57,430 nucleotides of DNA from Pseudomonadota bacterium. Its GTDB lineage: Bacteria > Pseudomonadota > Gammaproteobacteria > Arenicellales > UBA868. Location of the stretch: assembly GCA_016845525.1 (NCBI GenBank), contig JAERSQ010000243.1, positions 1-57,430 on the forward strand, given 5' to 3'. A model generated the notes under the pieces. The model saw only the letters and a program-made list of their open reading frames with translations, was not told the origin of the DNA and did not search any database. Of the stretch, positions 7,378-53,756 are shown in pieces; position 1 is the stretch's first letter; each line of letters opens with the position of its first letter. Made by a program: the position numbers and the translations under genes.

Positions 7378-8109
7378 ATGGGCGAGTTTCTTTATGACCC
7401 CCTCGAAGAACCAGACTTGTTCAATGCCGTTTCGTTGAACAGCCGCTTCACGACCGGAGCCAACTCTGCTCAGGGAGCGGTCAACGACCTGACCGAGAAT
7501 GCCCCTGCTCCGGGTGCGTTCAACAACGAGCACCTCCCTACGCTGGTTCACTTCTCCGGCGGACAGAACGTAGGCTCCGCAGGCGCAGGTTCTCACACAT
7601 ACACGCACCTCGCAGGCGCTACGAACAACGATAATATTCCCGTAGACTGGACGGTCATCAACTCAGATGGAGACGCAGGTACGGGCACCGACCTTGAGGT
7701 GGATTTCGGCGCTCTCTTCAACCTCTCGGGCACCACCGTCCAGGGCGTCCTCGTCATGGCAGACCTTCAAATCCGAAGGTTCTACGACGCGGGGTCTTAT
7801 ACCTACAACCACGAAGCGGTCTTTATGATTCAAGTCTTCGACGGCGCGTCTTGGGTGAATATCCCAAGGACCCTCCGTTGGGCCCTTCAGGGCATCCGCT
7901 CGGGCAGTGCCGCCGAAACCGCGCAGCGGGACCAACTCATCAAAGTTCCCATTCGCACCCTCATCCGGGCCGATGACATCGGGAACAACACTATCGAAAA
8001 AGTACGCGTTGTCGTCTCCATCGGAAATGGAAACACCTCAAACACGGAAACTGTGGAACTCTGGTGGTGCCAACTCTCTGCGTTGGTGTTGCAGAGCACG
8101 AGGACATAA
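7378..8109 (+). CDS. Virion appendage protein 2 of 3
   Basis: 243 residues, ATG preceded by GAGGAGG two codons after the stop of the previous gene. Near the N-terminus it shows NSRFTTGA...VNDLTENAPAPGAFNNEHLP, related in spacing to the NFY/NEHN pattern of the gene before. The C-terminal two thirds read as a beta sandwich (VQGVLVMADLQIRRFYDAG, VRVVVSIGNG). It ends with a TAATG junction into the next gene. The likely role is a tail or head fibre subunit acting together with its two neighbours. Confidence 0.5.
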   Translation: MGEFLYDPLEEPDLFNAVSLNSRFTTGANSAQGAVNDLTENAPAPGAFNNEHLPTLVHFSGGQNVGSAGAGSHTYTHLAGATNNDNIPVDWTVINSDGDAGTGTDLEVDFGALFNLSGTTVQGVLVMADLQIRRFYDAGSYTYNHEAVFMIQVFDGASWVNIPRTLRWALQGIRSGSAAETAQRDQLIKVPIRTLIRADDIGNNTIEKVRVVVSIGNGNTSNTETVELWWCQLSALVLQSTRT

Positions 8110-8828
8110 TGGCTGACATTACCCTTTCTACATTCGTAAACGGTGTTCCCTCTGACCCATCAACGGTCGAGTCGAACTTCTATGCGCCCACCGCTGCGGG
8201 CACAGCATCCCTGGAAGCCATCAACGGGCACCTTGATAATGCCAACCGAGAAGCTGGTTGGGATATCAGTCGTTCCCACATCCAACAGGGGGCACAGTCT
8301 CGGGGGCAGGCCGTTGGTGGGAACATCAACATGGACTACTTTGGGGATGTCTTCAATGGGTGGACCCTCACAGAGGACGCCAGCAGCCCAGCAGAAGCAG
8401 ACAAGTTCTACCAAGTTATCCCTGGCGCAGCGATTACTTATTATCTGCCGTTCTCTCCGACATTGGTGGTGCTCTCCTGGTCTGTTCTTGTCGCTTCGCG
8501 GTATGACAAACAGGGGATTGCCTCTGACACAGACTTCGAGACTACCGCCTCCAGGATTCGGTTGTTCGTAAATGGCTCTCGCCAAGCGAACAAAGAGTTT
8601 CCCATCCCAGCAAAGGGTTTGGGTAACTCTGCGGGCCTCGACGGAAACTGGGATAGAACTTGGAGCGGATTCCTGCTCATCAATAATCCTGCCGCTGGGT
8701 GGCATAGCGCAAGCCTTCGAATCGTGAGTTTTCCCGAGACGAATGGAACCGTCGCCTCCATTACAGCGCGGCCAAATAACCAAGCTCGTGTGCGTGTCCG
8801 GCACATGGATTATGTATACTTTCGGTAG
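8109..8828 (+). CDS. Virion appendage protein 3 of 3
   Basis: 239 residues from the ATG at 8109, which overlaps the previous stop (TAATG). The N-terminus (TFVNGVPSDPSTVESNFYAP ... LEAINGHLDNAN) again repeats the NFY / N-x-HLDN theme of the two preceding proteins. The body is beta-rich and ends in RVRVRHMDYVYFR. The three neighbours probably come from duplication and build one appendage with different chains. No further function can be assigned. Confidence 0.5.
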   Translation: MADITLSTFVNGVPSDPSTVESNFYAPTAAGTASLEAINGHLDNANREAGWDISRSHIQQGAQSRGQAVGGNINMDYFGDVFNGWTLTEDASSPAEADKFYQVIPGAAITYYLPFSPTLVVLSWSVLVASRYDKQGIASDTDFETTASRIRLFVNGSRQANKEFPIPAKGLGNSAGLDGNWDRTWSGFLLINNPAAGWHSASLRIVSFPETNGTVASITARPNNQARVRVRHMDYVYFR

Positions 8829-8836
8829 GAGAAACC

Positions 8837-9319
8837 ATGGCTGCTTCTGACTACATCCCCTTTGCGAGTAACGTCCGATACGCAAAGCAGTTGGGCGAGG
8901 ATGTCCGTGCAATGAGGGAAGGGCGTTTGGGCCTCTCGGAAGCCGAAAAAGAGCGCATGGCCACGGCGCAGAAACGTGACGTTGGGCAGCAAATCGGAGC
9001 GATGCAGCAGGATATCGCCCAAGAAGCGCTCGCCGCCGGGGGTGGAGGTACTCCATCCGGGCAATACGCAAAGATGATGCAATCACTCGCAGAGTCTTCA
9101 GAAGAAGCGGGAGCACGCGGACGCCGGGCAGCAGAAGAGGCGAGTATGCAACTCGCAGAAGCCCGACGGCAGGAGACCATGGACCGCCTCAACCAGAAGC
9201 GCATGGAAAACCGCTCTCTTATTGAAAGTACGATTCTCAAGCCTGCCCTCAAACCCGTCGGAAATGCACTGGCGGGAGGCATTGAGCAAGGACTCGGTTC
9301 CCTATTCGGCGGGGCATAG
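8837..9319 (+). CDS. Internal virion protein, small helical
   Basis: 160 residues with a strong AGGAGAAACC ribosome binding site. It is almost entirely helical and rich in Ala, Glu, Arg and Gln, with a Gly-rich break (AGGGGTPSG) and a C-terminal amphipathic segment ending in IEQGLGSLFGGA. Position before two very large internal proteins matches the small core protein of podovirus ejection complexes. The assignment is by analogy to gene order only. Confidence 0.45.
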   Translation: MAASDYIPFASNVRYAKQLGEDVRAMREGRLGLSEAEKERMATAQKRDVGQQIGAMQQDIAQEALAAGGGGTPSGQYAKMMQSLAESSEEAGARGRRAAEEASMQLAEARRQETMDRLNQKRMENRSLIESTILKPALKPVGNALAGGIEQGLGSLFGGA

Positions 9320-9328
9320 GAGAAGAAG

Positions 9329-25539: not shown

Positions 25540-25568
25540 GCACGGCATAAGACCGAAAATAAAAGAGG

Positions 25569-25641
25569 CTGGGGCGGCAGGACTCGAACCTACAACCTCC
25601 TGATTAACAGTCAGGCGTTCTGCCAGTTGAACTACACCCCA
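25569..25641 (-). tRNA. tRNA-Asn (anticodon GTT)
   Basis: The minus strand folds into a complete cloverleaf: a seven-pair acceptor stem (TGGGGTG with CGCCCCA, one G-T pair), a D arm, an anticodon stem CCTGA/TCAGG around the loop CTGTTAA (anticodon GTT), and a T arm with GGTTCGAGTCC. The discriminator base is G, usual for bacterial tRNA-Asn. The 3' CCA is not encoded. It lies at the end of the leftward operon, in the gap where the two transcripts meet. Confidence 0.95.
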
Positions 25642-28935: not shown

Positions 28936-31449
28936 TCATACTTCACTCCATCGTTGTCCAATGTCGGCTTCTGCTGTGTAGTCGAGCAATGCCCCACGTT
29001 TGCGGCGTCGGTTCATCGCTGTCTCAAGAATCTCGGCAGCTTCTTCCGCCTTATCTTCGGGCACCTCAAGGTAAAGGGCATCGTGCCCGTGGTTGATTAG
29101 CCACTCCACGGGGATGGTCTTCCCTCCCGGGCAGAGAGCCGAAGTTGCAAACCAATCTTGGGGGCCGTAAACGAGTTCAATCATCCCCTCGTTTACGATG
29201 GAAACTCCACCAGACTGGATGGGGTGATTCACAAGCTCGTTGATTTTATCCTCGTTACGGAAATACCTCCGACGACCCCAGAGCGTATCGCCAATAAAGC
29301 CCTCTCTTCGATACTTGTTCTCAATCATTCGCCACCACTTTGGAATCTCGGGGTCGGCGCGTTTGAGCCCTTCGACGACTTGCCTCACGTCTTCCAGGGC
29401 AAGGTGAGCGAAAATCAAGTTGCCCGTGTCGTCCTCCACAGAGACAACCTGCTCGTGGATTCTCTTGGTCGAAGCTGCGTATTGCCAAGCATAGCGGCAG
29501 TTCTTAGTAATGTCCCGAGTGCTCTTGAATGTACCTTTTCCCTTCTTCCTGCGCTCCTCGGGTGCCCCGGGCAAAGACCAAACCTCCTTCCCATAGATGA
29601 CTTCCATTGTCTCATTGTGGGGGTCGAGTCCCTCATTGATGATTCGGAGGGAATGCTGCGCGTTCGCCTCCTCGGCAATCAGGCGTAACTCCAACTGGTC
29701 CATGTCTGCTCCGACGAGGACATATCCTTCCCGGGCAATGAAGATGTCTCGGAGGGACTTAGGGATATTCTGCATATTTGGATTACTTGAAGAATATCGG
29801 CCTGTTGCGGGGAGCCTGTTGTAGCAGGGGTGGACCCGCTTGATTCCTTTTTCAATCAAAGGTCGGACGTAGGTGCCCAGGAGTTTTGTTACCTTTCGGT
29901 ACGACCGAACGGAACGCAAGAACACTTCCCGTTCTTTACTCAGCCCATAGTGAACAATCATCGTGCGGAGAGTCTCGTCATCTGTACTTGGGTCCCCGGT
30001 CTTCTCCGAGTAGTGATGAGGAGCGAGCCCCCAATCATCGAACAGGAGCTTCGCCATTTGGCGTGTGCTTTGGGGATTGAACTTCTGTCCGGCAACACTT
30101 TTACATACAGCAAGCTGTTTCTTTGCTTCCGTGTCCAAGGTGAACATGTGTTCAGCAGCGCGTTCCTGGTCTACCTCCATGCCTACAGATTGCATATAAG
30201 TACCGAGTGACTGGAGCGTGTGCTCCCTGGACAAGAGGTGCTGTTGGGAGCGCCGCTTTACGTCTCGCATAAGCGGCTTTGCAATCCGGGCCGTAACGCA
30301 AACATCCTTCCCACAATAAATGTGTAACTCTTCGTCGGTCTTTGCTTGGACGGCGGTGTGGTCTGCCTTCCACGCTTCCGGGTTATCTGTGTAAAACGAC
30401 CCGACAAATCCAAGATTGTGGGGAAGCTCATTGTCAGCGAGAAGATGGAGAAGAATAGTGTCTGCGGCCAAAACTGGACGAGCCCGCAACCACTGTTCCA
30501 TGGCCAAACGGTCATACTGACCAGCGTTGTGGCCTATGAGGGGGGTGCCGGGAGTTGAGGCAAAGTCACGGAGAATATCTTTGACCTCCTCCTCCCTCTC
30601 CGGGCTAAGAAAAGGCGTCCCGTCGATACTTCTGATTTCGACAACCAGCGCCTCATCTGCGTTACCGATTCCAACGCATCGGACCTTCGCTGTCATGGGG
30701 TCAATCCCATCAGTCTCCAGGTCGTAAGCAATGGGTTTCCCCACCCGGGCAAGATGAGCCAAGATGGCGCTGATTTCTTTGGGGTCTCGGGACCGAGTTA
30801 TTTTCGGCTCTTTCCAGTCCAGATTCCCCGCGAAATATTTGAAGGCTTTCGCCAAGTCGTGTCTGAACACTTCTCGGTATGCCTGCTGGCGAATCACAAA
30901 CGCGGGGTGCATGGTGTACCCTACTTTCAAGACGACTTCCGGGTCCCAGGGAGCGACGACATCCTCGCATCCCCCTCGGATATTCATAATAGAGACATCG
31001 CCACCACGGATGGCTTTCGCCGCCGTCTTGCCCAGGCAGATGATGTTCGTGATTCCAGTTGCTTTTAGCTCCTCGTACAGGAGGCTTTTACATGCATCAG
31101 CCGGACGTTTGAGCAGACGCGCTTCCGTCTTCTCCTCCCGGGCCTTCTTCTCGCGTCGGCGGTTAGTCCGCGAGACACGGATGTTTACGGCGTCCAAGTC
31201 GTTCTTGGGCGGTCGGCACCGGACCGCATTCGTGATGTGACACTCATCGCGGCGCACGTCGATTGCGTTCAACGCACGCTGAAGCTCAAGCCCCGACGGG
31301 CCAACGAAGGGGCGGCCTTCAACGGTCTCGTGCATCCCGGGTGCTTCTCCCAAGAGAATCACTCGGTCCTCACTGTGCGTTTCCGCCAGCACCGGCTCGC
31401 CGGTCTGACCCGCTTTGAGCGGGCAGTTATCACATGTTTTACAGTACAT
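28936..31449 (-). CDS. Uracil-DNA glycosylase / DNA polymerase A fusion
   Basis: 837 residues from ATG 31449; a TTG at 31461 falls in the T run of a hairpin. Residues 1-220 form a family 4-type uracil-DNA glycosylase: GEAPG near 34, GRPFVG, RCRPP near 78 and HPAF near 181, with four Cys (about 6, 9, 78, 120) that fit a [4Fe-4S] cluster. A 3'-5' exonuclease follows (DLETD near 243, YCGKD). The polymerase has motif A DMDQLELR and motif B R-x3-K-x3-Y, with Tyr at the Phe762 position of E. coli Pol I. Motif C reads HDA where HDE is usual. It copies the phage genome and may remove uracil. Confidence 0.9.
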   Translation of the reverse strand: MYCKTCDNCPLKAGQTGEPVLAETHSEDRVILLGEAPGMHETVEGRPFVGPSGLELQRALNAIDVRRDECHITNAVRCRPPKNDLDAVNIRVSRTNRRREKKAREEKTEARLLKRPADACKSLLYEELKATGITNIICLGKTAAKAIRGGDVSIMNIRGGCEDVVAPWDPEVVLKVGYTMHPAFVIRQQAYREVFRHDLAKAFKYFAGNLDWKEPKITRSRDPKEISAILAHLARVGKPIAYDLETDGIDPMTAKVRCVGIGNADEALVVEIRSIDGTPFLSPEREEEVKDILRDFASTPGTPLIGHNAGQYDRLAMEQWLRARPVLAADTILLHLLADNELPHNLGFVGSFYTDNPEAWKADHTAVQAKTDEELHIYCGKDVCVTARIAKPLMRDVKRRSQQHLLSREHTLQSLGTYMQSVGMEVDQERAAEHMFTLDTEAKKQLAVCKSVAGQKFNPQSTRQMAKLLFDDWGLAPHHYSEKTGDPSTDDETLRTMIVHYGLSKEREVFLRSVRSYRKVTKLLGTYVRPLIEKGIKRVHPCYNRLPATGRYSSSNPNMQNIPKSLRDIFIAREGYVLVGADMDQLELRLIAEEANAQHSLRIINEGLDPHNETMEVIYGKEVWSLPGAPEERRKKGKGTFKSTRDITKNCRYAWQYAASTKRIHEQVVSVEDDTGNLIFAHLALEDVRQVVEGLKRADPEIPKWWRMIENKYRREGFIGDTLWGRRRYFRNEDKINELVNHPIQSGGVSIVNEGMIELVYGPQDWFATSALCPGGKTIPVEWLINHGHDALYLEVPEDKAEEAAEILETAMNRRRKRGALLDYTAEADIGQRWSEV

Positions 31450-31464
31450 TGGTTGGGCCAAAAA

Positions 31465-35530: not shown

Positions 35531-38191
35531 TCACCCATTTCCGGGCAGTGATATTTGAGCAATACGCTCAAGCAAGCGAAGGCTTGCGCCTTCAGATTCG
35601 TCAACTCCTCCGAGCGCACCCTCGATTTCGTTCGCCGCAGCGTCCTCAGCGATTTCTCCGACGTGGGGGAGCTTGTCCAACAACAAGTCAGCGACATGCT
35701 CGTCAGCAGTCTGCCGAGCTATCACATAGGACACCAGGACGGGTCTCTTCTGCCCGAGGCGGGAAAACCTCCCCTCCCATTGGATGACTTTATCAGGAGT
35801 CCAAGGGAGCATGGAGATTAGTGCGAGGTCTGTGTCTTGCAAATCTACGCTTTCACCCCAAGCATCGCCCGTTCCAACCAGTAGGGCCGCGCCCTCCCGG
35901 GCCATGTACTCATTGCGGATGGTGTCTCGGTCACTCGGGTCAGTGCCCCCGTGTGCCCACCACATTTCGGCGTCGATGGCTGAAGCAGTGACGGCTTTGT
36001 TCAATCGGGCCGCAAGCCGCTCGCAATCAATCCTACGGCCAGTAAAAACTACTACCTTCTGGCCTGACTTGAGCGCGGTAATAACTCTGTCCTCGACGTA
36101 CTTGTGCTTCCGGGACGCAGCCTCCATGAGCAGCGTTTCGAAGTAGCTCTCCCGGGCTGATTCGTCGCCGCCGCTCGCCGCTTTCGCTGCCCGGGCAAGG
36201 TCACGCTTCATCGCGGAGGGTTTGTTCTGTTCTGCCAAAGACAGGCGCACGACTTCCCTGCGTTTCTTGGGCAAGTGCTTGTTCACCTCTTCCCGCTTCA
36301 CTCGGCACTTCACAAAGCCCAGGCGGTCACGGAGTTCGTGGGCATTACTCAACCCGTTGTACTCGTAGCCGTAGCCATTGTGTTGCCCAGCGCAGTTGTG
36401 ACTTCCGAGCCCGTCTGTGATGAAGTTGCCGGTTTCGGTTTTGATGCACGCAAGTTCTCCCGGGCCCATCGGTTCGATGCGGACAATCTTGTCATAGCCG
36501 GGAGCACCGATGTGGGCACGTCGGGGGGAAGAGTCAATCTTCCGAATCAATGCTGGCCGTACTGTCCCGAAGAATCGAAGCCTTTCCCAAGTACCCCCTC
36601 GGATGTAAATAGCCTTTTCACTTGCGGTGTAGGTGAATCCCCACACTTCAAGAGCAGTCTGAATAAACTGCCAAATCTTAGGGTTGACTCGCCTATGCTG
36701 TGCGATGACATTCTGCGAGCCCTCGGCGTCGTAGATGCCCGCGAGCCACCCTCGGCAAAACTCCTTCTCGGATTCCCGAGGAAGGACGATATCCTCATAG
36801 GCGGCTTTCGTGTAGAAGCCCAGACGGTATATGCCATCTTTCTGCTGCACGATAGGGCGTGGAGCCCAAGACAGGGCTTGGGCGTAGCCATGTGCTCTTT
36901 CCAGGTGGGGAAGTTCTTTGGCGTGGGCTGTGACGCTTCTCCTCAGTCCTCGGCTCGATTCCGAGGCTCGGACGTGGCCATCGCCGTCGACGAGCCCTCG
37001 GAGATAACCCCGCATGTACTGCTCGCCCTCCTCAGGTTCGGGTAGACGGGCAGCGTCGTAGCCCAAAGGGATGATGTGCTTGATCGGCCTGCGCCACTTC
37101 TGCCGGTGCATTTCTGTGAACAGAGGCATGTAGGGTCGCTTAGAATGGGGATGGTAGTTCACCCACCATTGGTGATCGGGGGAGCATACAACTGTTTTGC
37201 CGGATTCCAGGTGGACACGAACACGAGGGCCTTCAACCCGAAAGGTTTCCAGAACCTTTGTAGGATGGACTGCACGGTTCTTTTTCCCGTGGTCCCGACC
37301 CCATCCCATGACTTCATCACCAACTTGAATGTCAGCTATTGCGCGGTAGGTGCCATCGGCCATGAGTACGGGAGCTTTGGGCTCCAGACAATACCTCATC
37401 CCAAACTGGAAGAAGGAACCCCACTGCCAGGGCTCGACCAAATCGAGTTGAGTCCACAGGTCGCGCACTCTGCCCGGGATGGGAGTGGCTGTGAGGCCGA
37501 GCTTTCGGGCGGCAACCTCGGCAATCTGCCGGGCAGAATCCAAGGAGTTCCCGAGGCCCTCGTAGCGAATGCTCCCGTCCTCCAACACCGTAGCTTTCGT
37601 ATGCTTGGGGCGACGGAGCCAGTGAATCTCATCCCACACAATCACCTCGGGCCGAAACGCCACGAGCGCTTCACGCCAATACTTGATGGTTTCCCATGCG
37701 GTGATGTAGAGAGTGTCTTCCCGGAGTTCTATTCCACCACGCGGGGGTGTTTGGCCCAGCAGTAGCTTAGGTTTCAGGGTCGTGTATCGCTCGCATTGTT
37801 CTGCCCAAGTCCCCCGGGCCGCAGCCTTGGTGACGATGAGCTTTGGTCCCGTACCCGCTACAGCACACGCGTAGACCAAACCCACGAGAGTCTTGCCTGC
37901 TCCAGGCGGGGCCCAGACGTGCCCCCCGGGCACAGCGAGGGCTTTGCGGAGCAACCTTTTCTGGTGGTCCTTTGCGAAACCACGCAGGTCTCCCCGCAGT
38001 AGTTCACCCGAAAGCGCAGCGGCAATCGTGCCGTCTCCGCACACTCCAGCGACAGGAGAACCCCAACCAATAACTGAATGGGCGTTCAGTGGTACTCGGA
38101 ATCCCCGCCCGCTTTTGTTCTGCCAGATACCAGGGATGTCTTCGGCACCGGGAGGAACACTCCCAGTGAATACAAATGTTTTGTTGGGCAT
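35531..38191 (-). CDS. SNF2/SMARCAL1-like helicase with intein
   Basis: 886 residues including an intein at 268-599. The host protein (554 residues after splicing) has Walker A APPGAGKT, a DEIH box (VIVWDEIHW), GLTATPI as motif III and a C-terminal 'R-x-x-RLGQ' motif VI. The joined sequence across the intein, RYC-x-G-x7-Y-x-G-x-SN, matches the conserved SMARCAL1-like block. It is an SF2 translocase that probably remodels replication forks. Start ATG follows the AAAGGACC leader. Confidence 0.85.
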   Translation of the reverse strand: MPNKTFVFTGSVPPGAEDIPGIWQNKSGRGFRVPLNAHSVIGWGSPVAGVCGDGTIAAALSGELLRGDLRGFAKDHQKRLLRKALAVPGGHVWAPPGAGKTLVGLVYACAVAGTGPKLIVTKAAARGTWAEQCERYTTLKPKLLLGQTPPRGGIELREDTLYITAWETIKYWREALVAFRPEVIVWDEIHWLRRPKHTKATVLEDGSIRYEGLGNSLDSARQIAEVAARKLGLTATPIPGRVRDLWTQLDLVEPWQWGSFFQFGMRYCLEPKAPVLMADGTYRAIADIQVGDEVMGWGRDHGKKNRAVHPTKVLETFRVEGPRVRVHLESGKTVVCSPDHQWWVNYHPHSKRPYMPLFTEMHRQKWRRPIKHIIPLGYDAARLPEPEEGEQYMRGYLRGLVDGDGHVRASESSRGLRRSVTAHAKELPHLERAHGYAQALSWAPRPIVQQKDGIYRLGFYTKAAYEDIVLPRESEKEFCRGWLAGIYDAEGSQNVIAQHRRVNPKIWQFIQTALEVWGFTYTASEKAIYIRGGTWERLRFFGTVRPALIRKIDSSPRRAHIGAPGYDKIVRIEPMGPGELACIKTETGNFITDGLGSHNCAGQHNGYGYEYNGLSNAHELRDRLGFVKCRVKREEVNKHLPKKRREVVRLSLAEQNKPSAMKRDLARAAKAASGGDESARESYFETLLMEAASRKHKYVEDRVITALKSGQKVVVFTGRRIDCERLAARLNKAVTASAIDAEMWWAHGGTDPSDRDTIRNEYMAREGAALLVGTGDAWGESVDLQDTDLALISMLPWTPDKVIQWEGRFSRLGQKRPVLVSYVIARQTADEHVADLLLDKLPHVGEIAEDAAANEIEGALGGVDESEGASLRLLERIAQISLPGNG
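36395..37390 (-). mobile_element. Intein with LAGLIDADG endonuclease (helicase)
   Basis: 332 residues. It starts at Cys 268 (CLEPKAPVLMADGTYRAI) and ends at GLGSHN, with Cys as the next residue, so all splicing residues (Cys1, His-Asn, Cys+1) are present. The two LAGLIDADG motifs, LRGLVDGDG and LAGIYDAEG, keep their acidic residues, so the homing nuclease could be active. It is inserted inside the conserved RY-C block of the helicase, a site that tolerates no scar, as typical of inteins. Confidence 0.85.
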
Positions 38192-41600: not shown

Positions 41601-41628
41601 GCCTCCCCCCGACGGCCCGGGAGGAGGC
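41601..41628 (-). terminator. Bidirectional intrinsic terminator
   Basis: The stem GCCTCC...GGAGGC with inner G-C pairs (about 11 pairs, six-base loop) is followed by ACCTTTTATTT on the minus strand and by TTCTTTT on the plus strand. It therefore ends the leftward small-gene/MoxR operon and would also stop rightward transcription. This is the strongest terminator in the window. Downstream lies the control region of the next leftward operon. Confidence 0.8.
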
Positions 41629-41711: not shown

Positions 41712-42530
41712 CTATCCGGCCATTGCTTCAAGCAAAGCGACACAAGCCGCGCTCTCCACTTCCGACGCTCGACTCCGCAATCCTTCCAGCGTCTTCCCGA
41801 GAATCTCTTCGTAGTTCGCAACGAGAGAATCCAGTTCTTGTGCGTCTTTCTCCCGTGTCTTCAGGGCCCGCTTCCCGAGTTCCCCCTCCTCCAAGTCAGA
41901 CTCCAGCTTTGCCAGTTGGTTTTCGACTTGAATCACGAGGGAATCGCACACGGCTTCAACCGTGTTTTCATCCGTCGTCGTTTTCATCTTCCACGTCACG
42001 TTCCCAGAACGCGCCCGTTCAACAACGTCTACAATCTGCTCCCACTTCTCGGCGCTTGAATCTGGAATCCAATAGAATCCTCCCCTGGGCCGTAGGGGAA
42101 TACCGTTTAGCTCCCGGGCCGCCCGCACGAGAACGCCTCCGAGTTTCGCCGCAGTTACCAACTTCTTTTCAAAGCGGTAGGTATCCGAGACGGCTTCCCT
42201 CAATGGATGGTCCATAGGATTGGAGAACAGTTTTCCATCTACCAAGCCCATTCGGACTTCTTCGTCGTATTCCATTTCATCACCGGACGCGTCTTCATTG
42301 ACAACGGCGTAGCCGACGATTCCTTTGAGCGGACGAATCAGAGTTCGCTTGCCGGGAAAGTGATGCGCCAAAGCCCGGCGCAACGCTTGGGAATCCTCCT
42401 GCACCTCGGGCAGAAGGTGAAGCCAGCCGATTTCCTCGAATCCATCGCGCAAGACTTCAATGTTTGTTCCGTCGGTCAAACTCCAGAACACTGTGATTCC
42501 GTTGTATTTGATTTTCTTTTCTACTGACAT
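41712..42530 (-). CDS. DUF6744-like phage protein
   Basis: 272 residues, ATG behind AAAGGACCAACAAA. The phrase RPRGGFYWIPDSSAEKWEQIVDVVE near 150 resembles the 'R-x-GG-x-[YF]-x-[VI]P' block of DUF6744-type phage proteins, and the last third is a long coiled coil. Such proteins occur beside MoxR/VWA genes in other phages, as here. Their function is unknown. It is the last gene before the terminator at 41.6 kb. Confidence 0.45.
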   Translation of the reverse strand: MSVEKKIKYNGITVFWSLTDGTNIEVLRDGFEEIGWLHLLPEVQEDSQALRRALAHHFPGKRTLIRPLKGIVGYAVVNEDASGDEMEYDEEVRMGLVDGKLFSNPMDHPLREAVSDTYRFEKKLVTAAKLGGVLVRAARELNGIPLRPRGGFYWIPDSSAEKWEQIVDVVERARSGNVTWKMKTTTDENTVEAVCDSLVIQVENQLAKLESDLEEGELGKRALKTREKDAQELDSLVANYEEILGKTLEGLRSRASEVESAACVALLEAMAG

Positions 42531-42628
42531 TTTGTTGGTCCTTTACTAAAGGTGAATGATGCTTGATTGCACCAGACTACCTACCCGCCCCAAAGGAAAG
42601 ACGGATAGGTAGCAGGGAGAATCAAGAA

Positions 42629-44077
42629 TCAATCCTCTACAACGATAGGATGAATCCAGCGGGGAATACTGTGCTCCCCACAATGTTTTCCAATCAGACA
42701 AGCTACGACTGGAACGCGGATATCTCCCTCTCGGGGCCACGGCGTGTAACCGTCAGTCAGTACAACGATACACTGGGGCCGCGATTCCAAGGCCCGTTGA
42801 ATCAGGGGAACCATGTTTGTTCCCCCGCGCCCAACGAGCGAGACGTTTCCAACGCTCGTTACCTTTTCCGCGAAACCAACCTGGGTGTCCCCAGTAACGA
42901 CCATTGCGGAAGCACCAACCGCGCGTAGAATCCCGGAGCATTCAGAGCAGCAAGCCGCCAAATCTTCGTCCGACATTGAGCCGGACGTATCAATCACAAC
43001 GGCTACATCCACCCTGGGCCGAAAGACGGCGGGAAGAATCACATTCCCCGAGACGCTCGACTGTCGTCGCGAGCGCTTAGAGTAAGTGTAGTTCGACGCG
43101 CCCAAAGCGCGGTCCCGAGATTCGCGGATGAACTGCTGAAGCTTGGACTGCCATGGAATCTTAGGTGGCGAAACTTCAGCCCCAGCCCAGGATTCCCAGT
43201 GTCCGGGAACGGTTCCACGAATGCGAGCCGATTCCTGAATCTCTCGGGCCGTAGCCTTTCGGATGGAATCGTCATCCCCAGCGCGAACGCCGGGAATCTC
43301 GCCATCTTCCGTCGGAGGAGGAAGTTCCCAATCGCGCTTGCCCTTTGTCGTCCCGGGCAAATCGCCGCCCAGCGGGTTTTCTTCCGCTACGCGCTTGTTC
43401 CGTTCCCCGCGCCTATTGCTTTCGCCGTTTCCCTTCCCTTCTCCCGGGCTATCCCCTCCGGGCCCTTGTCCGGGTTCGCCATCCTCGCAAGGCTCACCGC
43501 CCTCACCCGAATCTTCCTCGGGCCATTCCATCCACTTGTAGAAATACTCGAAAGTCTCGGCAGTGTTTCGAGGGAAACAAGCACCAGTCCTACGGTCTAC
43601 AAGTTTCTCGGGCCAGACGCAATCCTCGGGTAAGTGTGCCCGGAGGTATTTATCCTGGCCGTTGATTTCCGCGTCCGTCGCGAGATTCGCGCGGACGGGA
43701 TTCGGGGCTTCCCCCCTTGGGCCGAAAGGGAGCGCAGCTAACCGTTCGGGGTGTCGGCGTAACCAGTGCCAAGTTTCATGGATGAAAGAAGCGATTGAGG
43801 ATTCAATCGACTCTAAGACTTCCGGGTCATCTCCCGCGACTACCTCGGGGTCAAAGTAGATTCGCGCGTATTTATCCATTGCCCAAGAGGCTCCAGACTT
43901 GAAGCGCAATCCCCAAACAGGGATCGGAGTCATAGCGTAGAGGCCGCGTCCGAGCATGGGATATTCACGGACAGCGCCGACTCGAACCGTAGCGATTCGA
44001 ACGAGCGCTTTCTCCATGATTTTCGGGTCCTCTTCTGCCAACACAGAGAGGATTTCTTTAGGTGCAAACTGGGTCAT
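42629..44077 (-). CDS. HExxH metallopeptidase-like and VWA protein
   Basis: 482 residues, ATG behind AAAGGACCACGAAA. Residues about 97-101 read HETWH, the HExxH zinc motif of the metallopeptidase-like domain often fused to VWA proteins (DUF2201 type). A long acidic, Gly-rich linker follows. The C-terminal 140 residues are a von Willebrand A domain with the MIDAS motif DTSGSMS near 360, GGTNM and LTDGYTPWP. Such proteins act with MoxR-type AAA+ ATPases to load metals or remodel protein complexes; its MoxR partner lies at 45354. Confidence 0.8.
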   Translation of the reverse strand: MTQFAPKEILSVLAEEDPKIMEKALVRIATVRVGAVREYPMLGRGLYAMTPIPVWGLRFKSGASWAMDKYARIYFDPEVVAGDDPEVLESIESSIASFIHETWHWLRRHPERLAALPFGPRGEAPNPVRANLATDAEINGQDKYLRAHLPEDCVWPEKLVDRRTGACFPRNTAETFEYFYKWMEWPEEDSGEGGEPCEDGEPGQGPGGDSPGEGKGNGESNRRGERNKRVAEENPLGGDLPGTTKGKRDWELPPPTEDGEIPGVRAGDDDSIRKATAREIQESARIRGTVPGHWESWAGAEVSPPKIPWQSKLQQFIRESRDRALGASNYTYSKRSRRQSSVSGNVILPAVFRPRVDVAVVIDTSGSMSDEDLAACCSECSGILRAVGASAMVVTGDTQVGFAEKVTSVGNVSLVGRGGTNMVPLIQRALESRPQCIVVLTDGYTPWPREGDIRVPVVACLIGKHCGEHSIPRWIHPIVVED

Positions 44078-44111
44078 TTTCGTGGTCCTTTAGTTTGTTA
44101 GGGGTTGAGGT

Positions 44112-45005
44112 TTAGAAAGGCCGAGCATGATACTGGAGTTCCCCGAAAGCATTTCGGGTCAAGCAGCACCAGATGGTAGCGATAGAACCGTTGCTCGCAT
44201 TGTACTGGAACGCTTTGACGGCTGGCGGATAGTCAATCCCCGGCGGCCATGAAGATCGGCATGGGACTTCAATGGGAATAAGATTGTGGCGAGCCAGGAC
44301 TTCCGCGTATTCTGTTTTGGCGATTCCTTTCAGCCACGTCATAGCTTCACGCGGCCCGTCAAAGTAGGAATAAGCCCGAGAGTCCTTCGGCGCACCGAGA
44401 GTTCGGAGCATTTTCTTCGCCGTAAACTTTCGGATTTCCCGAGAACGACTCCACTGGTCGTACCGGTCGCCAATCTTCCGGCGGCTCCTCGTGACAAAGC
44501 CGCCTTTGAGAGCCCAGGACGGTACGTCTTTCTCTCCCGGGCCGACAATGAAAATGCGGTCGCGGTTTCGCCGGGAGATTTGAATCTTCCGAGCTTCTTT
44601 CACCGCAGGCCGCAAGTCTTTCGGGAGCATTGAAAGCATTAGGCCGGGAGTCAGTTCCCGAGAAGACCGGTTTTCGAAAACCTCGGAAAGCCAGGGATGC
44701 TCATCGCTCAAATCCCAGTAGCTCCGATAGGAATCCTGGCTCAGATACCATTGCCACCAAAGACGAATCTCAAAGCAACGGCACCGGAGGTTTGGGTCCA
44801 GAAGCCGCAAGACTTCAATCTCTCCCGCGTCTTCCGGCTTATGATTGTGGAGAATCAATCGCCCGTTCAAAACCGACACGGTATGGCGCGAAGACATACA
44901 GTTCACGCGAGCTATCACGGGGGATTGTGTTCTGTTCTTTCGGGCTGCTTTTGAGGCCCGCTCTACTCGGCACAAATGCCGTTCCTGGTATCTTTCTTCA
45001 TACAT
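44112..45005 (-). CDS. Unknown protein in the MoxR-VWA module
   Basis: 297 residues, ATG behind AAAGGACCAAAGAAA. It is basic, rich in Arg, Ser and Trp, with a Cys cluster (LRCRCFEIRLWWQWYL) and several helices (SWALKGGFVTRSRRKIGDRYDQWSRSREIR). The basic character suggests binding to nucleic acid. It is inserted between the VWA gene and the MoxR gene, so it may be a substrate or partner of that pair. No family recognised. Confidence 0.5.
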   Translation of the reverse strand: MYEERYQERHLCRVERASKAARKNRTQSPVIARVNCMSSRHTVSVLNGRLILHNHKPEDAGEIEVLRLLDPNLRCRCFEIRLWWQWYLSQDSYRSYWDLSDEHPWLSEVFENRSSRELTPGLMLSMLPKDLRPAVKEARKIQISRRNRDRIFIVGPGEKDVPSWALKGGFVTRSRRKIGDRYDQWSRSREIRKFTAKKMLRTLGAPKDSRAYSYFDGPREAMTWLKGIAKTEYAEVLARHNLIPIEVPCRSSWPPGIDYPPAVKAFQYNASNGSIATIWCCLTRNAFGELQYHARPF

Positions 45006-45105
45006 TTTCTTTGGTCCTTTGTAGGTAAATCCTGTTTGAGTACAGGCTAAACGCGGCCCCTAAACCCTAATCATCCCGGGCAAAGGGACTGCGTTGCGTC
45101 TACGC

Positions 45106-45339
45106 TCAAACGCCATGCTCCGCACAGGACTCTTCCACGAGTTCGACCAACGGGTCTTGCTCAGTTTCCGCAAAGCATTCCGGGCAAAGCCCGTCTTCAA
45201 TGTCTTCCTCGTTAAAGTTCTCGCCGCAATCCCCACACGTCACAAAGAAATGTTCAGTGTGCCAATATTCGCGGTTTGAACGTAGGGAATCATGCTCATC
45301 CCAGGGAGACATTGTTTTCCAGTAGTCATAATCAGACAT
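45106..45339 (-). CDS. Small zinc-ribbon protein
   Basis: 77 residues from ATG 45339, behind AAAGGGGGG. A GTG at 45357 overlapping the previous stop (GTGA) would add six residues. It contains TCGDCGENFNEEDIEDGLCP then EC, a two-pair zinc ribbon (CxxC ... CxxC), and an acidic C-terminus. It is coupled to the MoxR gene and may be an adaptor. Function unknown. Confidence 0.55.
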   Translation of the reverse strand: MSDYDYWKTMSPWDEHDSLRSNREYWHTEHFFVTCGDCGENFNEEDIEDGLCPECFAETEQDPLVELVEESCAEHGV

Positions 45340-45353
45340 AGTCCGCCCCCCTT

Positions 45354-46496
45354 TCACTGGTCTTTCTTCAAGAGCCCAAGGTCCTTGAACATTTCGCCAA
45401 AGATTCGAGCTTCAGAGGGAATATGCTTCCGCAAGTGTTTCCCCTCGGGAGTCTGCATGAGTTTCGCCAGGGTTTGGGCTGCAATCATTGCCTTGTCTTT
45501 GTGGGGCGTTCCATCGGAACGTCCAATGACAACCCACGCCGCCTTCCAATCGTTCATCTTTTTGGTGCCTGAAACATAGGCCGCGATTGACTGGTAGAAC
45601 ATGAACGCAATGTCCGAGCGGACGGGAATCTCGGTGTCCGAGGGATTCGCCAGAATCTCGGAGGGCTCCGGGATATGCTCGCGCAAAGTGTAGTAGCCCA
45701 TAAACTCCGAGCCGATTCGCTGACCAATCGTTCCCTCCGCAATCAAGCGGATTGCATGGCGAGAAGCGCCGTTCCCCTGAGCAGCAGACAACGCTTTCGC
45801 AAGGTTTGTCCAGGAGCGCGGAGTCGGACGCGGCTTGTTTAGATACTCTCGTGTGGGAGCTACGCGGAACGCGCCTCCTGTAGAGTTAGCCGAGATTGTA
45901 TCCGAGCTTGTCTCACCTTGACGGCGCAAGAATCCGACACAAAGCGCGGCTTGTTCGGCTGGAGCCCAACGCCCCGAAACCATGCCGTCACACCAGAAGT
46001 CAAAATCCAGTTGCCAGTCAAAGTGAACCATTCGCGTGCAAACAGGCGGAGCCAAGTCTGTAGCGTTCACGGCGATATCGGGCGGATTCGCCGCGATAAC
46101 AAAGCGAACCAGATTCGGGTCCAGTTCCACGTCCCCAGCGATATGCTCGGAAAGCAGCGTTAGCAGCGTTGCCAGAACAGCGCCGGGAGAACAAGTTACC
46201 TCGTCAATAAAGATTAGGTAGTGTTCCCCTCGGGCTGAATACTCCAGGGCTTCGCGGATTGCCCGGTGAACGGGAACGCGGGAAGCTACGCCGGAATCGT
46301 CAACGCTAATCGCGCCGCCGATGTCAGTTGGGTCCATGTTCGAACCATTCACAATCCAGCCGCCCCACTTCCGTCGGGCAATCTCGGAACGGATGAAGGA
46401 AGTTTTCCCTTCACCGTCCGCGCCCCAAAGAATCGGGACAAGGTTAGCGTCAATGGCCGTTCGCACGGCCTCAATCGTTTCAGTCATTCGTGACAT
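45354..46496 (-). CDS. MoxR-type AAA+ ATPase
   Basis: 380 residues, ATG behind AAAGGACCATACAAA. Walker A WGADGEGKTSF is near residue 25, Walker B YLIFIDEVTCSP near 95, sensor 1 FVIAANPP near 130 and an arginine in CTRMVHFDW as putative finger. The pattern is that of MoxR/CoxD ATPases, which work with VWA proteins; the VWA partner is encoded at 42629. A helical C-terminal domain follows. It probably remodels a phage or host target. Confidence 0.8.
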   Translation of the reverse strand: MSRMTETIEAVRTAIDANLVPILWGADGEGKTSFIRSEIARRKWGGWIVNGSNMDPTDIGGAISVDDSGVASRVPVHRAIREALEYSARGEHYLIFIDEVTCSPGAVLATLLTLLSEHIAGDVELDPNLVRFVIAANPPDIAVNATDLAPPVCTRMVHFDWQLDFDFWCDGMVSGRWAPAEQAALCVGFLRRQGETSSDTISANSTGGAFRVAPTREYLNKPRPTPRSWTNLAKALSAAQGNGASRHAIRLIAEGTIGQRIGSEFMGYYTLREHIPEPSEILANPSDTEIPVRSDIAFMFYQSIAAYVSGTKKMNDWKAAWVVIGRSDGTPHKDKAMIAAQTLAKLMQTPEGKHLRKHIPSEARIFGEMFKDLGLLKKDQ

Positions 46497-46584
46497 TTTG
46501 TATGGTCCTTTGCTTTTCCACTAAGCGAGATTGCCAGCGGCCCAAACGCTCCCCCCGAGAAAGAGGGAAGCGCTTGTGTCGTTG

Positions 46585-48807: not shown

Positions 48808-48850
48808 TGTCAAGCAAATGTCAAGGGAATGTCAAGCAGATGTCAAGGGG
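48808..48850 (-). repeat. Four TTGACA repeats, 11 bp apart
   Basis: On the plus strand TGTCAAG occurs at 48808, 48819, 48830 and 48841, one helical turn apart; the minus strand reads TTGACA each time, the -35 consensus. Two further copies with the same spacing lie before the nuclease gene at 35.2 kb. They are likely binding sites for a phage regulator or origin protein, or stacked -35 elements of the early leftward promoter. Confidence 0.6.
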
Positions 48851-48864
48851 CAAGGGGGGGCTAT

Positions 48865-49285
48865 CCTCGCTCCGCTCGCTCACTACGTTCGCTCGCTCCG
48901 CGAGGTTGTTTTCCGCTACGCTCGGTGCCCTCACGCTAAAGCGCTCGGGCTTCGCCGTAGCTCCCCCTCCGGGGGGCTCCGGGGTAACGCGCTCGCTGGT
49001 CGCTCGCACTCACCCCTACTCGGGCACGCGTTCGCTATCGCTCACTATGTGTGCCCACTGTCGCGCGGTACGGGGCTACGCCCCTACGCGCTCCTCGCTC
49101 CCCTGCGGTCCGCTCCCCTCCGGGGGTGTGGATCCGGCAAGCCGGGGGGCCTCTCCCTCACGGTCGAGGGCTCGTTCGCTTCGCTCCGCGAAGCTCACTC
49201 GGACGACACGAGCTACGCTCGTGCTCTGCCCTCTTGGGCGCTCCGCTCCCTCCGGTCGCTACGCACCCATCCCCGGCTCCGCCGG
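48865..49285. repeat. Dense array of small hairpins
   Basis: The region is non-coding and packed with short perfect stems that mostly have TCC or TAC as loop. Examples are CCTCGC/GCGAGG (48865-48905), CCCCC-TCC-GGGGG (48963-48975), GGGGC-TAC-GCCCC (49072-49084), CCGGC-AA-GCCGG (49134-49145), GCTTCGC-TCC-GCGAAGC (49178-49194), CACGAGC-TAC-GCTCGTG (49207-49223) and CCGGC-TCC-GCCGG (49273-49285). Long open frames here have low-complexity products and no binding sites. It lies at the divergence point of the two programmes. Confidence 0.7.
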
Positions 49286-49309
49286 TTCCGGTTCCCGGTT
49301 ATACCCCCT

Positions 49310-50365: not shown

Positions 50366-50940
50366 ACGACGATCTGGACGAAGTGCTCGATTTACTCGAC
50401 GCGGAGGACGACGTTCCGCCCGTGGAACTAACGAGGACTAATGAGTCGTCAGGTACTCCTTCCTCTGGGCTGAAAAGGGGCGAAAAGGGACCAACGAAAA
50501 GCCAGGTTGAACCTGGACAATCAGCGATTGTTCCTGCTCCTGACGACAATCAAAGTCTACTGAGTGTTGAGGCGCTTCAGAAGTTGGCTGCTGATGCTGA
50601 GTATAACGAGCAGAGCCTACCTGCTTCCTTCCTCTCGAATGCCGCGCCGCATTTGCATAACACCCATGGAATCGTTGATTTCGCTACAACCGTTTGCCTT
50701 GCTGTAGCGAGGGGAGAGATTCAGATAAAGCAAAGTGCTGAACTCCGCAAGTGGGCCGAACTAATGTATACCTGTGTGGTGGCTTCTCAACCTAATCAGA
50801 ATAATGTCCAAGTGAACTATGTGGAGCAGTTGATTCAGCTTGCCGGAGGCGAGGAAGCAATGCAACCCGAAGTTCTTGATGTCCGAGATGCCATTACTGC
50901 TTCTCACCCAACACCCCGCAAAAAAGCTCAGGGTGAGTAG
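50362..50940 (+). CDS. Terminase small subunit candidate
   Basis: 192 residues from ATG 50362, behind GGAGGGGAGGAG. An acidic N-terminus (DLDEVLDLLDAEDD) is followed by a Ser/Pro-rich linker, then helices including LRKWAELMYTCVV and VNYVEQLIQLAGGEEAM. Small-terminase proteins are usually placed directly before the large subunit and oligomerise through helices like these. There is no obvious HTH at the N-terminus, so the call rests mainly on position. Confidence 0.45.
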   Translation: MNDDLDEVLDLLDAEDDVPPVELTRTNESSGTPSSGLKRGEKGPTKSQVEPGQSAIVPAPDDNQSLLSVEALQKLAADAEYNEQSLPASFLSNAAPHLHNTHGIVDFATTVCLAVARGEIQIKQSAELRKWAELMYTCVVASQPNQNNVQVNYVEQLIQLAGGEEAMQPEVLDVRDAITASHPTPRKKAQGE

Positions 50941-53756
50941 TGAGCCAAGCGAACGCAGCACAGCTACTCAACACGCTCCGTTCTCCTGCCCGGGCACTCC
51001 AGGCATTTGGGGAGGTGCATGATCAGAGGACGGGTAGGTTCATAAAATACAACCCTACGGCGATTACCCACGAACTTCAGCACGCGGTTCTCGACTACAT
51101 GTCGAATACTCCGAGGCTCCCGACGGGCGAGACCGTTTTCCTCTCCCTTTTGGGCTACCGTCAGGCAGGAAAATCCCTCACTACGGAGTACGCAGCCTAT
51201 TGTAAAGCAGCCTTCATCCCGGGCTGGGACCATGTATGTATCGCCGACAATCGTGACCGTGCGGACTACCTCCACAAACGTGTTCACTATTTGCACCAAA
51301 GGTGGCCGGAATCGTTGCGTTCCAAGTCAATGGCTACCCGAGAGAGTAGGCAGCTTACCTTTGACCCCCTCCAGGGCGGGAAGATGCGTGTCCTCTCCGC
51401 AGAGTCGGGAGCGGTCGGTGTCGGTCAATCACCCGATTCCTTCCACGCTTGCCTTGGCAAAGGGACAATGGTTCTCTGTGGAGAGACAGGAGCCCTCCGA
51501 CCCATCGAAGAGTTTCGAGTAGGAGACTTGGTCCGAACTCACTCTGGGCAGACTGCGCCGATCACCTACATCTCGTCTAAGGAAAAGATGGCGTGGAGGG
51601 TGAAGCTCTTCGGATTCGCGGAGCCGCTCACCGTCACTCCCGAGCATAAGCTTTGGACCAATCAAGGGTGGCTCACCCTCCAGGAAGTGGCTGAACGGAA
51701 GGCCCGAGTGGGGTTTCCGATCCTTCGCCCTTCCGGGCAAGTGCGAGAACTCCCGTTCGAGCAGCCAGTAGTCGAGCGCCCACAAGGAGGAGGCTCCAAT
51801 GAAGTTGGGATCCCCGAGACTGTTCACCTAACCTATCCCCTGGGCAAACTTGTCGGCCTCTACTTGGCTGAGGGCTCGATGCACTCTGAGCGGTCGGTGA
51901 CCTTTAGTGTTCATTGGGATGAGGTAAGCCGAACAGTCGACTGGCTCGATGAGGAGCGGTTTCTATTCACGAACGCCACCTTCAACTTCCGGGCAAACTC
52001 ACAGACCGCGACGGTGTACGTTTCTGGGCGCTCCTTCGCCCACTTCCTCCGGAATCTCGTAGGGGAAAAGGATGAGAAGAGATTCCCCGATAGATGGTGG
52101 GAGATGCCCGAGGAGTTCGTTCGGGGAATCGTCCATGGCTACCTTTCGGGTGATGGGCACTCGAATAAGCATAAGTACAATCGGAGGATCACGCTTACCT
52201 CGATTCGGTCGGCTACCATCACTGGACTTCGGGATGCCCTGGCTGGCCTGGGCTACGGGTGGGGCACAATCCGCAGGCGGAAGGCAGGGAATCACTATGG
52301 CCGTAACTGTCAGGAAGCCTGGATTCTCGATCTTTGCGGTTCAGGGGTAGACCGACTTGCCCGGGACCTTGGGTGGGAGTCACCTCCTCGAACACGCCGG
52401 GGTGTAACGAAGAACTGGAATCTGGAAGAGGATGGGGAGCACGTCTGGGTAGCAATTCAAGACGTGCAGCCTCTCCCTGGACTCCAAGAAGTCTATGACT
52501 TTGAGGTAGGCCACGAGGATCATAGCTACTGCCTCGCCCACATCGCTGTGTCCAACTCGGAGGTTCACCTCTGGTCAGACTTCTCGGGCTCCATGTTCCT
52601 TATCAACCCGTCGCTCATCAACAGGCGAGAGGCACTTGTTGTCTTCGAAGCCACCCCTTGGGAGCGAAACTGTGCTTGGCACGACCACTATGTCATGGCC
52701 AAACAGGGTTCAGGACGCCATATCGCGAAGTTTTTCCCCTTCTGGGACGGAAAACTCAACGCACGGCCCACCCCAAAGGACTTCCAGCCCACAAACGAGG
52801 AGGTTGAACTCCTAAACAGGTACCAATCCTTGGGCCTAACGACGGATAACCTTACTTTTCGGCGATTCATCATGGACACGGACCCCGAGGTCCGCCGAAA
52901 TCCCGAAATGTTCGGGGTGATGTACCCATTTGACGACCTCTCGTGCTGGATTGCGTCCGCAAATGCCGCGATTCCCCAACATTGCCTCGAAAAACACCTC
53001 AAGAAAGAGCTTCAACCCTGGTCTGGGCCGTATATGGAGTACGAAATGCCCGAAGCGGGGGCGATTTATGTGATTGGAGTCGATCCGAGTGGATATGCGG
53101 CCCGAGACCACGCCTCTTTCCAGGTTTTGAAGTGCTGGAAGGACGAATGGACGCAAGTTGCGTCCTTCGCGGAGCATATTGACCCCCTTTCCTTCACAAA
53201 TCAGCTTCTTCGGGCCGCGAATCGCTATAATCAGGCCACAATCTGCGTAGAGAGCAATGGTGTGGGCCAATCTGTGCTCGCATTGCTCCAAGAGCGCGAT
53301 TACCGTAATGTTTACTATGAAGCGCGGTTCAAGCCCGGATTCACGAGCACATCCAAGTCTCTTGACCAAGCAACAGGTTGGTTGATTGATGGATTGCTCG
53401 ACGAGCTTGTCCTGAACGACCGGGATCTGCTGGAGCAGCTTCAGACGTACAAGAACGACAAACGCACGGAAGAAAGCCCAGCCTCGGAGATACTTCGAGG
53501 TGCTTCCAGCAACAAACGCCGAGATCGACATCACTGGGATAAGGTTTCTGCGCTGTTGATGGCTGTAGTCGCTGCCCGCCGGGCACCTGTCCGCGAAAAG
53601 CCCGGGGCAAACCTCAAAGGTCCCGACGAGAATGTGATTATGTTCACCGGCATGAGTTACGATGAGCAGGAACACTACCGCAAGAAACTCGCGGAAGATA
53701 AACAACCCACTCGGAAAAAACTGTCTTATAGGTCTGTCCGTAAGAGGAGACGCTGA
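50940..53756 (+). CDS. terL: Terminase large subunit with intein
   Basis: 938 residues including an intein at 171-539; the mature protein has 569. The ATPase has Walker A GYRQAGKS (71-78), and the sequence joined across the intein, DSFHA-SEVHLW, is the Walker B region with its catalytic Glu. The C-terminal RNase H-like nuclease shows IGVDPSG near 713, ICVESNG near 770 and HHWDKVSALL near 865. GTG start after TAG, as in a coupled operon. It packages the DNA into the capsid through the portal encoded at 54596. Confidence 0.9.
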   Translation: MSQANAAQLLNTLRSPARALQAFGEVHDQRTGRFIKYNPTAITHELQHAVLDYMSNTPRLPTGETVFLSLLGYRQAGKSLTTEYAAYCKAAFIPGWDHVCIADNRDRADYLHKRVHYLHQRWPESLRSKSMATRESRQLTFDPLQGGKMRVLSAESGAVGVGQSPDSFHACLGKGTMVLCGETGALRPIEEFRVGDLVRTHSGQTAPITYISSKEKMAWRVKLFGFAEPLTVTPEHKLWTNQGWLTLQEVAERKARVGFPILRPSGQVRELPFEQPVVERPQGGGSNEVGIPETVHLTYPLGKLVGLYLAEGSMHSERSVTFSVHWDEVSRTVDWLDEERFLFTNATFNFRANSQTATVYVSGRSFAHFLRNLVGEKDEKRFPDRWWEMPEEFVRGIVHGYLSGDGHSNKHKYNRRITLTSIRSATITGLRDALAGLGYGWGTIRRRKAGNHYGRNCQEAWILDLCGSGVDRLARDLGWESPPRTRRGVTKNWNLEEDGEHVWVAIQDVQPLPGLQEVYDFEVGHEDHSYCLAHIAVSNSEVHLWSDFSGSMFLINPSLINRREALVVFEATPWERNCAWHDHYVMAKQGSGRHIAKFFPFWDGKLNARPTPKDFQPTNEEVELLNRYQSLGLTTDNLTFRRFIMDTDPEVRRNPEMFGVMYPFDDLSCWIASANAAIPQHCLEKHLKKELQPWSGPYMEYEMPEAGAIYVIGVDPSGYAARDHASFQVLKCWKDEWTQVASFAEHIDPLSFTNQLLRAANRYNQATICVESNGVGQSVLALLQERDYRNVYYEARFKPGFTSTSKSLDQATGWLIDGLLDELVLNDRDLLEQLQTYKNDKRTEESPASEILRGASSNKRRDRHHWDKVSALLMAVVAARRAPVREKPGANLKGPDENVIMFTGMSYDEQEHYRKKLAEDKQPTRKKLSYRSVRKRRR
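51450..52556 (+). mobile_element. Intein with LAGLIDADG endonuclease (terminase)
   Basis: 369 residues from Cys 171 (CLGKGTMVLCGETGALRPI) to Asn 539, followed by Ser as +1 residue. Block B reads TPEHK; LAGLIDADG motifs LVGLYLAEG and VHGYLSGDG retain the acidic residues; block F is VYDFEVGHEDHSY. The C-terminal residues are AVSN, so the usual penultimate His is Ser. It interrupts the Walker B region of the terminase, so packaging depends on splicing. Confidence 0.85.

Follow-up and report, generated by a model that had tools for sequence, protein, structure and literature searches.

Results

A MoxR-type ATPase gene and a metallopeptidase-VWA gene on one arm of a phage contig

We examined two minus-strand genes lying between positions 42,629 and 46,496 of a 57,430-nucleotide stretch of DNA (contig JAERSQ010000243.1 of assembly GCA_016845525.1, from the metagenome-assembled genome [MAG] of a gammaproteobacterium of the Arenicellales), which is here called the window and is read as a phage contig. 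The genes, designated 45354 and 42629 after their lower coordinates (Table 1), encode respectively an AAA+ ATPase of the MoxR type and a protein that joins a zinc-metallopeptidase-like (zincin-like) domain to a von Willebrand factor A (VWA) domain with its metal-ion-dependent adhesion site (MIDAS). Both open reading frames (ORFs) were located at these coordinates and were far above chance in an ORF check. The original prediction had paired the two products as partners in a phage machine that remodels a host complex early in infection, along with the products of three neighbouring genes; hmmscan and direct reading of the residues confirmed the families of the pair.

The product of gene 45354 is a MoxR-type AAA+ ATPase. 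It matched AAA_5 (2.6e-7) and PHROG 1297, labelled “ATPase” (E=5.4e-38), and was recovered by phmmer with gp24 of Escherichia phage N4 as query (E 2.1e-11). Direct reading placed Walker A at residues 25–32 (GADGEGKT), Walker B as FIDE, sensor-1 at N137, and a further arginine at R227; G28, G30, K31 (the Walker A lysine), N137 and R227 were invariant in the 41 aligned phage and bacterial proteins, and R155, the candidate Arg finger, was kept in 39 of the 41. The AlphaFold2 model (predicted local distance difference test [pLDDT] 85, predicted template modelling score [pTM] 0.80) showed the helix-2 beta-hairpin typical of MoxR (strands 62–65 and 71–74, between helices 56–60 and 78–88) and an all-helical lid region at 226–372. 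Its top 18 matches in the PDB were NorQ and CbbQ2 entries (E 2.6e-9 to 4e-7), including the NorQ hexamer and NorQ-NorD complexes. A sequence search of the PDB found no relative for either protein of the pair, and the score of the ATPase against the bpMoxR profile was under the cut-off.

The product of gene 42629 matched the Pfam families DUF2201_N, a “putative metallopeptidase” (8.7e-19), and DUF2201, “VWA-like” (9.9e-19), as well as PHROG 1314 (E=1.5e-41), and was recovered by phmmer with N4 gp25 as query (E 4.3e-11). The zinc site was read directly as HETWHWLRRH at residues 100–109 (HETWH at 100–104), with D135 as the candidate third ligand, and the MIDAS was complete (D363-S365-S367, T420 and D442). 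In an alignment of 47 proteins the five MIDAS residues (D/S/S/T/D) were invariant, as were the two HExxH histidines and the residue aligned with D135, and the catalytic glutamate was kept in 44. The model of this protein was of moderate quality (pLDDT 77, pTM 0.59), with low confidence in the Gly/Pro/Ser-rich, acidic linker at about residues 186–262; known VWA-domain folds were among the best PDB matches of its VWA part, and the whole model matched predicted phage metallopeptidase/VWA proteins in BFVD (best match 30% identity, E 4.9e-26).

PHROG 1314 carries the label “HNH endonuclease”, which RefSeq repeats for N4 gp25 and its relatives and which recurs across phage annotation. The label looks wrong for this metallopeptidase/VWA family, because the domains identified by sequence are zincin-like and VWA, and none of the matches of the window protein was to an HNH domain.

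Comparison with N4 gp24/gp25 and other MoxR-VWA systems

The window pair corresponds to gp24 and gp25 of N4 (Schitoviridae; PHROG 1297 and 1314) in both families, in gene order and orientation, and in the key residues, and in both phages the replication genes share an arm with the pair. When the N4 early and middle protein set was used for phmmer, exactly three window ORFs were matched: the pair and the DNA polymerase. Identity between the window pair and gp24/gp25 is about 18–20%, and the window differs from N4 in the genes that separate the pair and in its longer linker. A partial query of the N4 virion RNA polymerase found nothing among the window ORFs by phmmer; since this giant N4-type polymerase was not found, the phage was not filed as Schitoviridae. 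The window portal protein had no tblastn match in a collection of 50,697 phage records, and 99 further genomes from the group also yielded no relative.

The occurrence of such a pair in a phage is not new. The N4-like forms have been listed since 2009 as “putative ATPase, AAA superfamily” and “vWFA superfamily” (PMC2784036), a cyanophage MoxR gene has been assigned to the CGN subfamily (PMC9964418), and a MoxR ATPase paired with a VWA protein bearing an N-terminal metallopeptidase, as in the window, was published in 2021 for group 2.2 jumbo phages by Iyer et al. (PMC7824862). For the jumbo-phage pair, which often lies near structural genes, a role in virion assembly was proposed, whereas the window pair lies on the replication arm of a 57-kb phage contig. 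NorQ-NorD and CbbQ-CbbO share with the window a MoxR fold and a MIDAS-bearing VWA partner, but NorD and CbbO differ from DUF2201 and their clients (cNOR and Rubisco) are cellular enzymes. The p618/p892 proteins of Acidianus two-tailed virus (ATV) are likewise a viral MoxR and VWA pair, which has been linked to development of the tail (PMC3893208, PMC7824862); ATV is, however, an archaeal virus, its pair is without a peptidase domain (PMC7824862), and the window VWA model matches ORF892 weakly (BFVD, E 4e-5). The window pair is thus an unusually divergent example of an already known, widespread phage gene pair.

Spread and co-occurrence of the pair

Using N4 gp24 and gp25 as tblastn queries against the 50,697 phage records, we obtained matches in 803 and 651 records respectively, although some weak ATPase matches may be to other AAA+ proteins. 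The matched phages included Schitoviridae, rV5-like phages, jumbo phages (RaK2, CBB, PA5oct, Phosso and Bacillus phage G), cyanophages and others; judged by these matches, the pair is widely conserved and occurs in about 1% of sequenced phage records. All 19 phage loci taken from annotated records carried both genes, as did all 17 further loci from the window, the MAG and related bacterial genomes. A direct search of IMG/VR with the window proteins gave no relative, and a 9-row alignment held no stretch conserved enough for scanning; the IMG/VR relatives were reached through a homologue on contig C252 of the MAG. Among these, 76 of 81 loci had the ATPase gene near the VWA gene, 75 of them with it in the upstream position and on the same strand; four of the five exceptions lay at contig starts and the fifth (L061) was an absence within 5.4 kb upstream. 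Some of the “viral” IMG/VR contigs may be bacterial, since in one of them an acyl-CoA dehydrogenase gene adjoins the pair. Of 77 bacterial contigs, 64 had the ATPase, and seven of the absences were unexplained by contig ends. The genes therefore co-occur in relatives and their MIDAS and Walker residues are retained, and the partnership drawn in the original prediction held on both counts.

The neighbours of the pair in the IMG/VR relatives were mainly genes for primase/helicase, DnaB, DNA polymerase and terminase, and replication genes were also nearest to it in phages 98PfluR60PP, PG11, Kc283 and DEV and in the window, where the next operon encodes a primase. In about 20 of the IMG/VR phages a DUF3150-type protein is encoded between the MoxR and VWA genes, apparently as the third component of one sub-lineage.

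The window pair and the pairs of the surrounding MAG

The MAG that holds the window, which may be the genome of the host of the phage (viral contigs can be mis-binned), has a chromosomal pair of its own on contig C230 and a further pair on C252. The VWA protein of C230 has close relatives (83–96% identity) in Acidiferrobacter-like gammaproteobacterial MAGs, and the MAG of the window probably belongs with these. The C252 pair (7797–10049 of locus L036) is phage-like and more canonical than that of the window, its VWA protein matching PHROG 1314 at 7e-102; its Walker B reads DD rather than DE. Chromosomal MoxR-DUF2201 pairs of bacteria (C230, Sedimenticola, Thiogranum) resemble the window pair in domains and in adjacency of the genes, but they fall in one separate clade (support 100/100 for VWA and 99/99 for ATPase) with the window pair outside, and in them the NxAxD motif is mostly DxACD. 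Acquisition of the window pair from the host was therefore rejected, the host's own pair belonging to a different, well-supported clade. Among 36 end branches, that of the window ranked first in length for the VWA protein and second for the ATPase, at 4.6 and 6.4 changes per column.

Accessory genes, leader and other features of the window

Genes 44112 and 45106 lie between the pair, and 41712 follows it (Table 1). A terminator-like hairpin downstream of 41712 probably ends an operon that spans 41712 to at least 46496. The original prediction described the three products as a basic protein, a zinc ribbon and a DUF6744-like protein. The first and last descriptions were borne out: 44112 is basic and had no match in Pfam, PHROG or NCBIfam, and 41712 passed the DUF6744 cut-off. 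For 45106, the GTG start of which overlaps the ATPase stop codon, the CxxC...CxxC look of a zinc ribbon was seen, but no family was above the cut-off.

Membership of these three proteins in a common machine with the pair was not upheld, as none was found by phmmer near any other MoxR/VWA pair searched; 44112 and 41712 had no tblastn relative in the phage collection. Of 64 records that carry the pair, a single one (Moorella phage MTATph1) had DUF6744, at a distance of 33 kb, and among 299 genomes of the same phylum it occurred in G000 alone; DUF6744 was rejected as a third subunit. Although 44112 fills the same place as the DUF3150-type protein mentioned above, comparison of 44112 and 41712 with the DUF3150-type profile by hhalign found nothing, and neither is taken as its counterpart. 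Despite the shared operon, the association of the accessory genes with the window pair is not conserved.

The leader AAAGGACC, which had been assigned to all five genes, lies 6–7 nt ahead of four start codons (those of 41712, 42629, 44112 and 45354) and is absent before 45106. It also precedes the helicase gene 35531 and gene 48273, at least six genes of that arm in all, and is over-represented (11 observed vs 2.8 expected); as a mark of a regulon or gene set it was rejected, being a general extended Shine-Dalgarno sequence of the minus arm.

Table 1. Coordinates of the pair and of associated features in the window.
Feature	Position	Strand	Basis
MoxR-type AAA+ ATPase, 380 aa, distant N4 gp24 homologue	45354..46496	-	PHROG 1297, phmmer, AlphaFold2
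Zinc-metallopeptidase-like domain (HETWH...D), linker and VWA with complete MIDAS, 482 aa, distant N4 gp25 homologue	42629..44077	-	DUF2201_N/DUF2201, PHROG 1314, phmmer
Basic protein between the pair genes, 297 aa	44112..45005	-	pI 9.85; no family
Acidic zinc-ribbon-like protein, 83 aa	45106..45357	-	Sub-threshold LIM/HypA/Zn-ribbon matches
DUF6744 protein, last operon gene	41712..42530	-	Pfam PF20529, 32.7 bits (cut-off 27)
AAAGGACC, extended Shine-Dalgarno of ATPase gene	46504..46511	-	
AAAGGACC, extended Shine-Dalgarno of VWA gene	44084..44091	-	
AAAGGACC, extended Shine-Dalgarno of 44112	45013..45020	-	
AAAGGACC, extended Shine-Dalgarno of 41712	42537..42544	-	
Predicted intrinsic terminator downstream of 41712 (12-bp stem, 9 G-C pairs, T-rich tail)	41601..41628	-	Pattern match only

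Several other features of the window were recorded. The family A DNA polymerase (28936–31461, minus strand) has an N-terminal domain of the uracil-DNA-glycosylase (UDG) superfamily (PF03167, residues 31–193, E 3e-20) before its 3'-5' exonuclease and polymerase domains, and is apparently a UDG-polymerase fusion. The SNF2-type helicase (35531–38191, minus strand) is interrupted, intein-like, by Hint and LAGLIDADG domains, and the large terminase (50940–53756, plus strand; 938 aa), with weak Hint (171–234) and LAGLIDADG (392–441) matches, probably carries a second intein. Where the two divergent arms meet, the intergenic region holds about four 11-bp tandem repeats (TGTCAAG plus 4 nt) at 48808–48849, and beside them, at 48866–49300, a GC-rich stretch with repeats of the CGCTCGCT type; these repeats are possible operator or origin iterons. 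A tRNA-Asn (GTT) gene lies at the boundary of two arms (25567–25641, minus strand).

Discussion

We read the pair, with a probability of about 0.6, as a remodelling machine of phage MoxR and VWA proteins like N4 gp24/gp25, the target of which is most likely a phage-made complex of mid-infection. In the NorQ-NorD precedent one VWA protein sits at the pore of a MoxR hexamer and uses its MIDAS to bind the client, not the ring, and the variable N-terminal domain of NorD has been suggested to give client specificity (PMC9976466). By analogy with NorQ-NorD and CbbQ-CbbO, the window ATPase would form a hexameric ring onto which the VWA protein would dock; the MIDAS metal would bind an acidic group on the target protein, and ATP hydrolysis by the ring, transmitted through the VWA domain, would pull on or reshape that target. 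The zincin domain, of which we know of no instance in NorD, occupies the position that specifies the target there, and it probably recognises the target and clips or holds it in most lineages. Strict conservation of the MIDAS, taken together with occasional loss of the peptidase glutamate, suggests that client binding is essential and cleavage optional. The target would be most likely a complex of replication, packaging or virion assembly, given the gene neighbourhood and the timing of N4 expression; a phage-made client is favoured because phages that infect many unrelated hosts carry the pair, mostly beside replication genes and sometimes beside terminase or virion genes.

Several observations weigh against this reading. 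The VWA model is without a clearly extended pore-plugging “finger”, the beta hairpin at 390–406 being short, although this was judged non-quantitatively on a model of moderate confidence. The HExxH glutamate is gone in Pseudomonas phage 98PfluR60PP (L005, 6476–7702; HLAMH) and in three Desulfuromonadales-type bacterial homologues (HAxxH or HLxxH), all of which keep the MIDAS, so that proteolysis would not be universal. The distance matrices of ATPase and VWA protein do correlate (r=0.69, 0/5000 permutations), in favour of the reading, but this may mirror shared descent only. In RaK2, CBB and S-TIM54 the pair adjoins virion genes instead of replication genes, and for N4 gp24/gp25 we found no interaction, activity or phenotype reported in the literature.

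The position of the pair in RaK2, CBB and S-TIM54, and likewise beside structural genes in RHEph22, is what would be expected if the pair were a chaperone of virion assembly that assembles or proteolytically matures a structural protein, by analogy with ATV p618/p892. This role, already proposed for the group 2.2 jumbo phages (PMC7824862), would also suit the location of the N4 gp24/25 homologues near a second structural module in RPP1 (PMC4193335), the “ESI-MS/MS” annotation of the PA5oct ATPase gene and the presence of ATV ORF892 among the BFVD matches. As replication genes are nearest in most IMG/VR relatives and in the window and the four phages listed with it, and as the ATV match is weak and that system is without the peptidase domain, we consider a virion-assembly chaperone possible but rather unlikely. 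A narrower form of the remodelling machine, in which an ATP-driven, metal-site-gated protease-remodeller is dedicated to the phage replication complex (e.g., one that loads, disassembles or matures an assembly of primase-helicase or polymerase) and the window pair has recruited the private basic protein and zinc ribbon as adaptors, is a speculation to which we give little credence; to our knowledge such a role is not known for any MoxR/VWA system.

An early role in which the machine remodels or breaks down a complex of the host, as first predicted, we regard as improbable. Bacterial MoxR/VWA pairs such as RavA-ViaA and NorQD do remodel cellular enzymes (PMC3893208, PMC9976466), and, since the MAG also encodes a pair of this family, a client in the host is conceivable. 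N4 gp24 and gp25 are middle genes (PMC4193335), which argues against an early take-over role, and the relatives lie mostly in a replication module; the phage pair does not derive from the host pair, similar pairs in phages of very different hosts argue for a phage-borne target, and neither an early promoter nor supporting evidence for a host target was found. A system of anti-defence or conflict, akin to the MoxR-vWA ternary systems, would account for the domains, both of which occur in conflict systems (PMC7159879); it is very unlikely, as PADLOC matched none of the five proteins, the bpMoxR match was below the cut-off, and there was no Pfam, NCBIfam or PHROG match for a third component of the VMAP or FtsH type. 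The very long branches of the window pair could represent relaxed constraint in a decayed, non-functional remnant, but with both ORFs at full length, all active-site residues retained and ribosome-binding sites of their own, decay is scarcely credible.

We found no function assigned to the N4-type pair in the literature, the model coliphage N4 included. The contrast between residues that never vary (MIDAS, Walker A and the zinc ligands) and a peptidase glutamate that can be lost makes the question directly testable in N4. To this family the window adds one very divergent example, and with it a demonstration that the pair is not accompanied by a conserved set of accessory genes.

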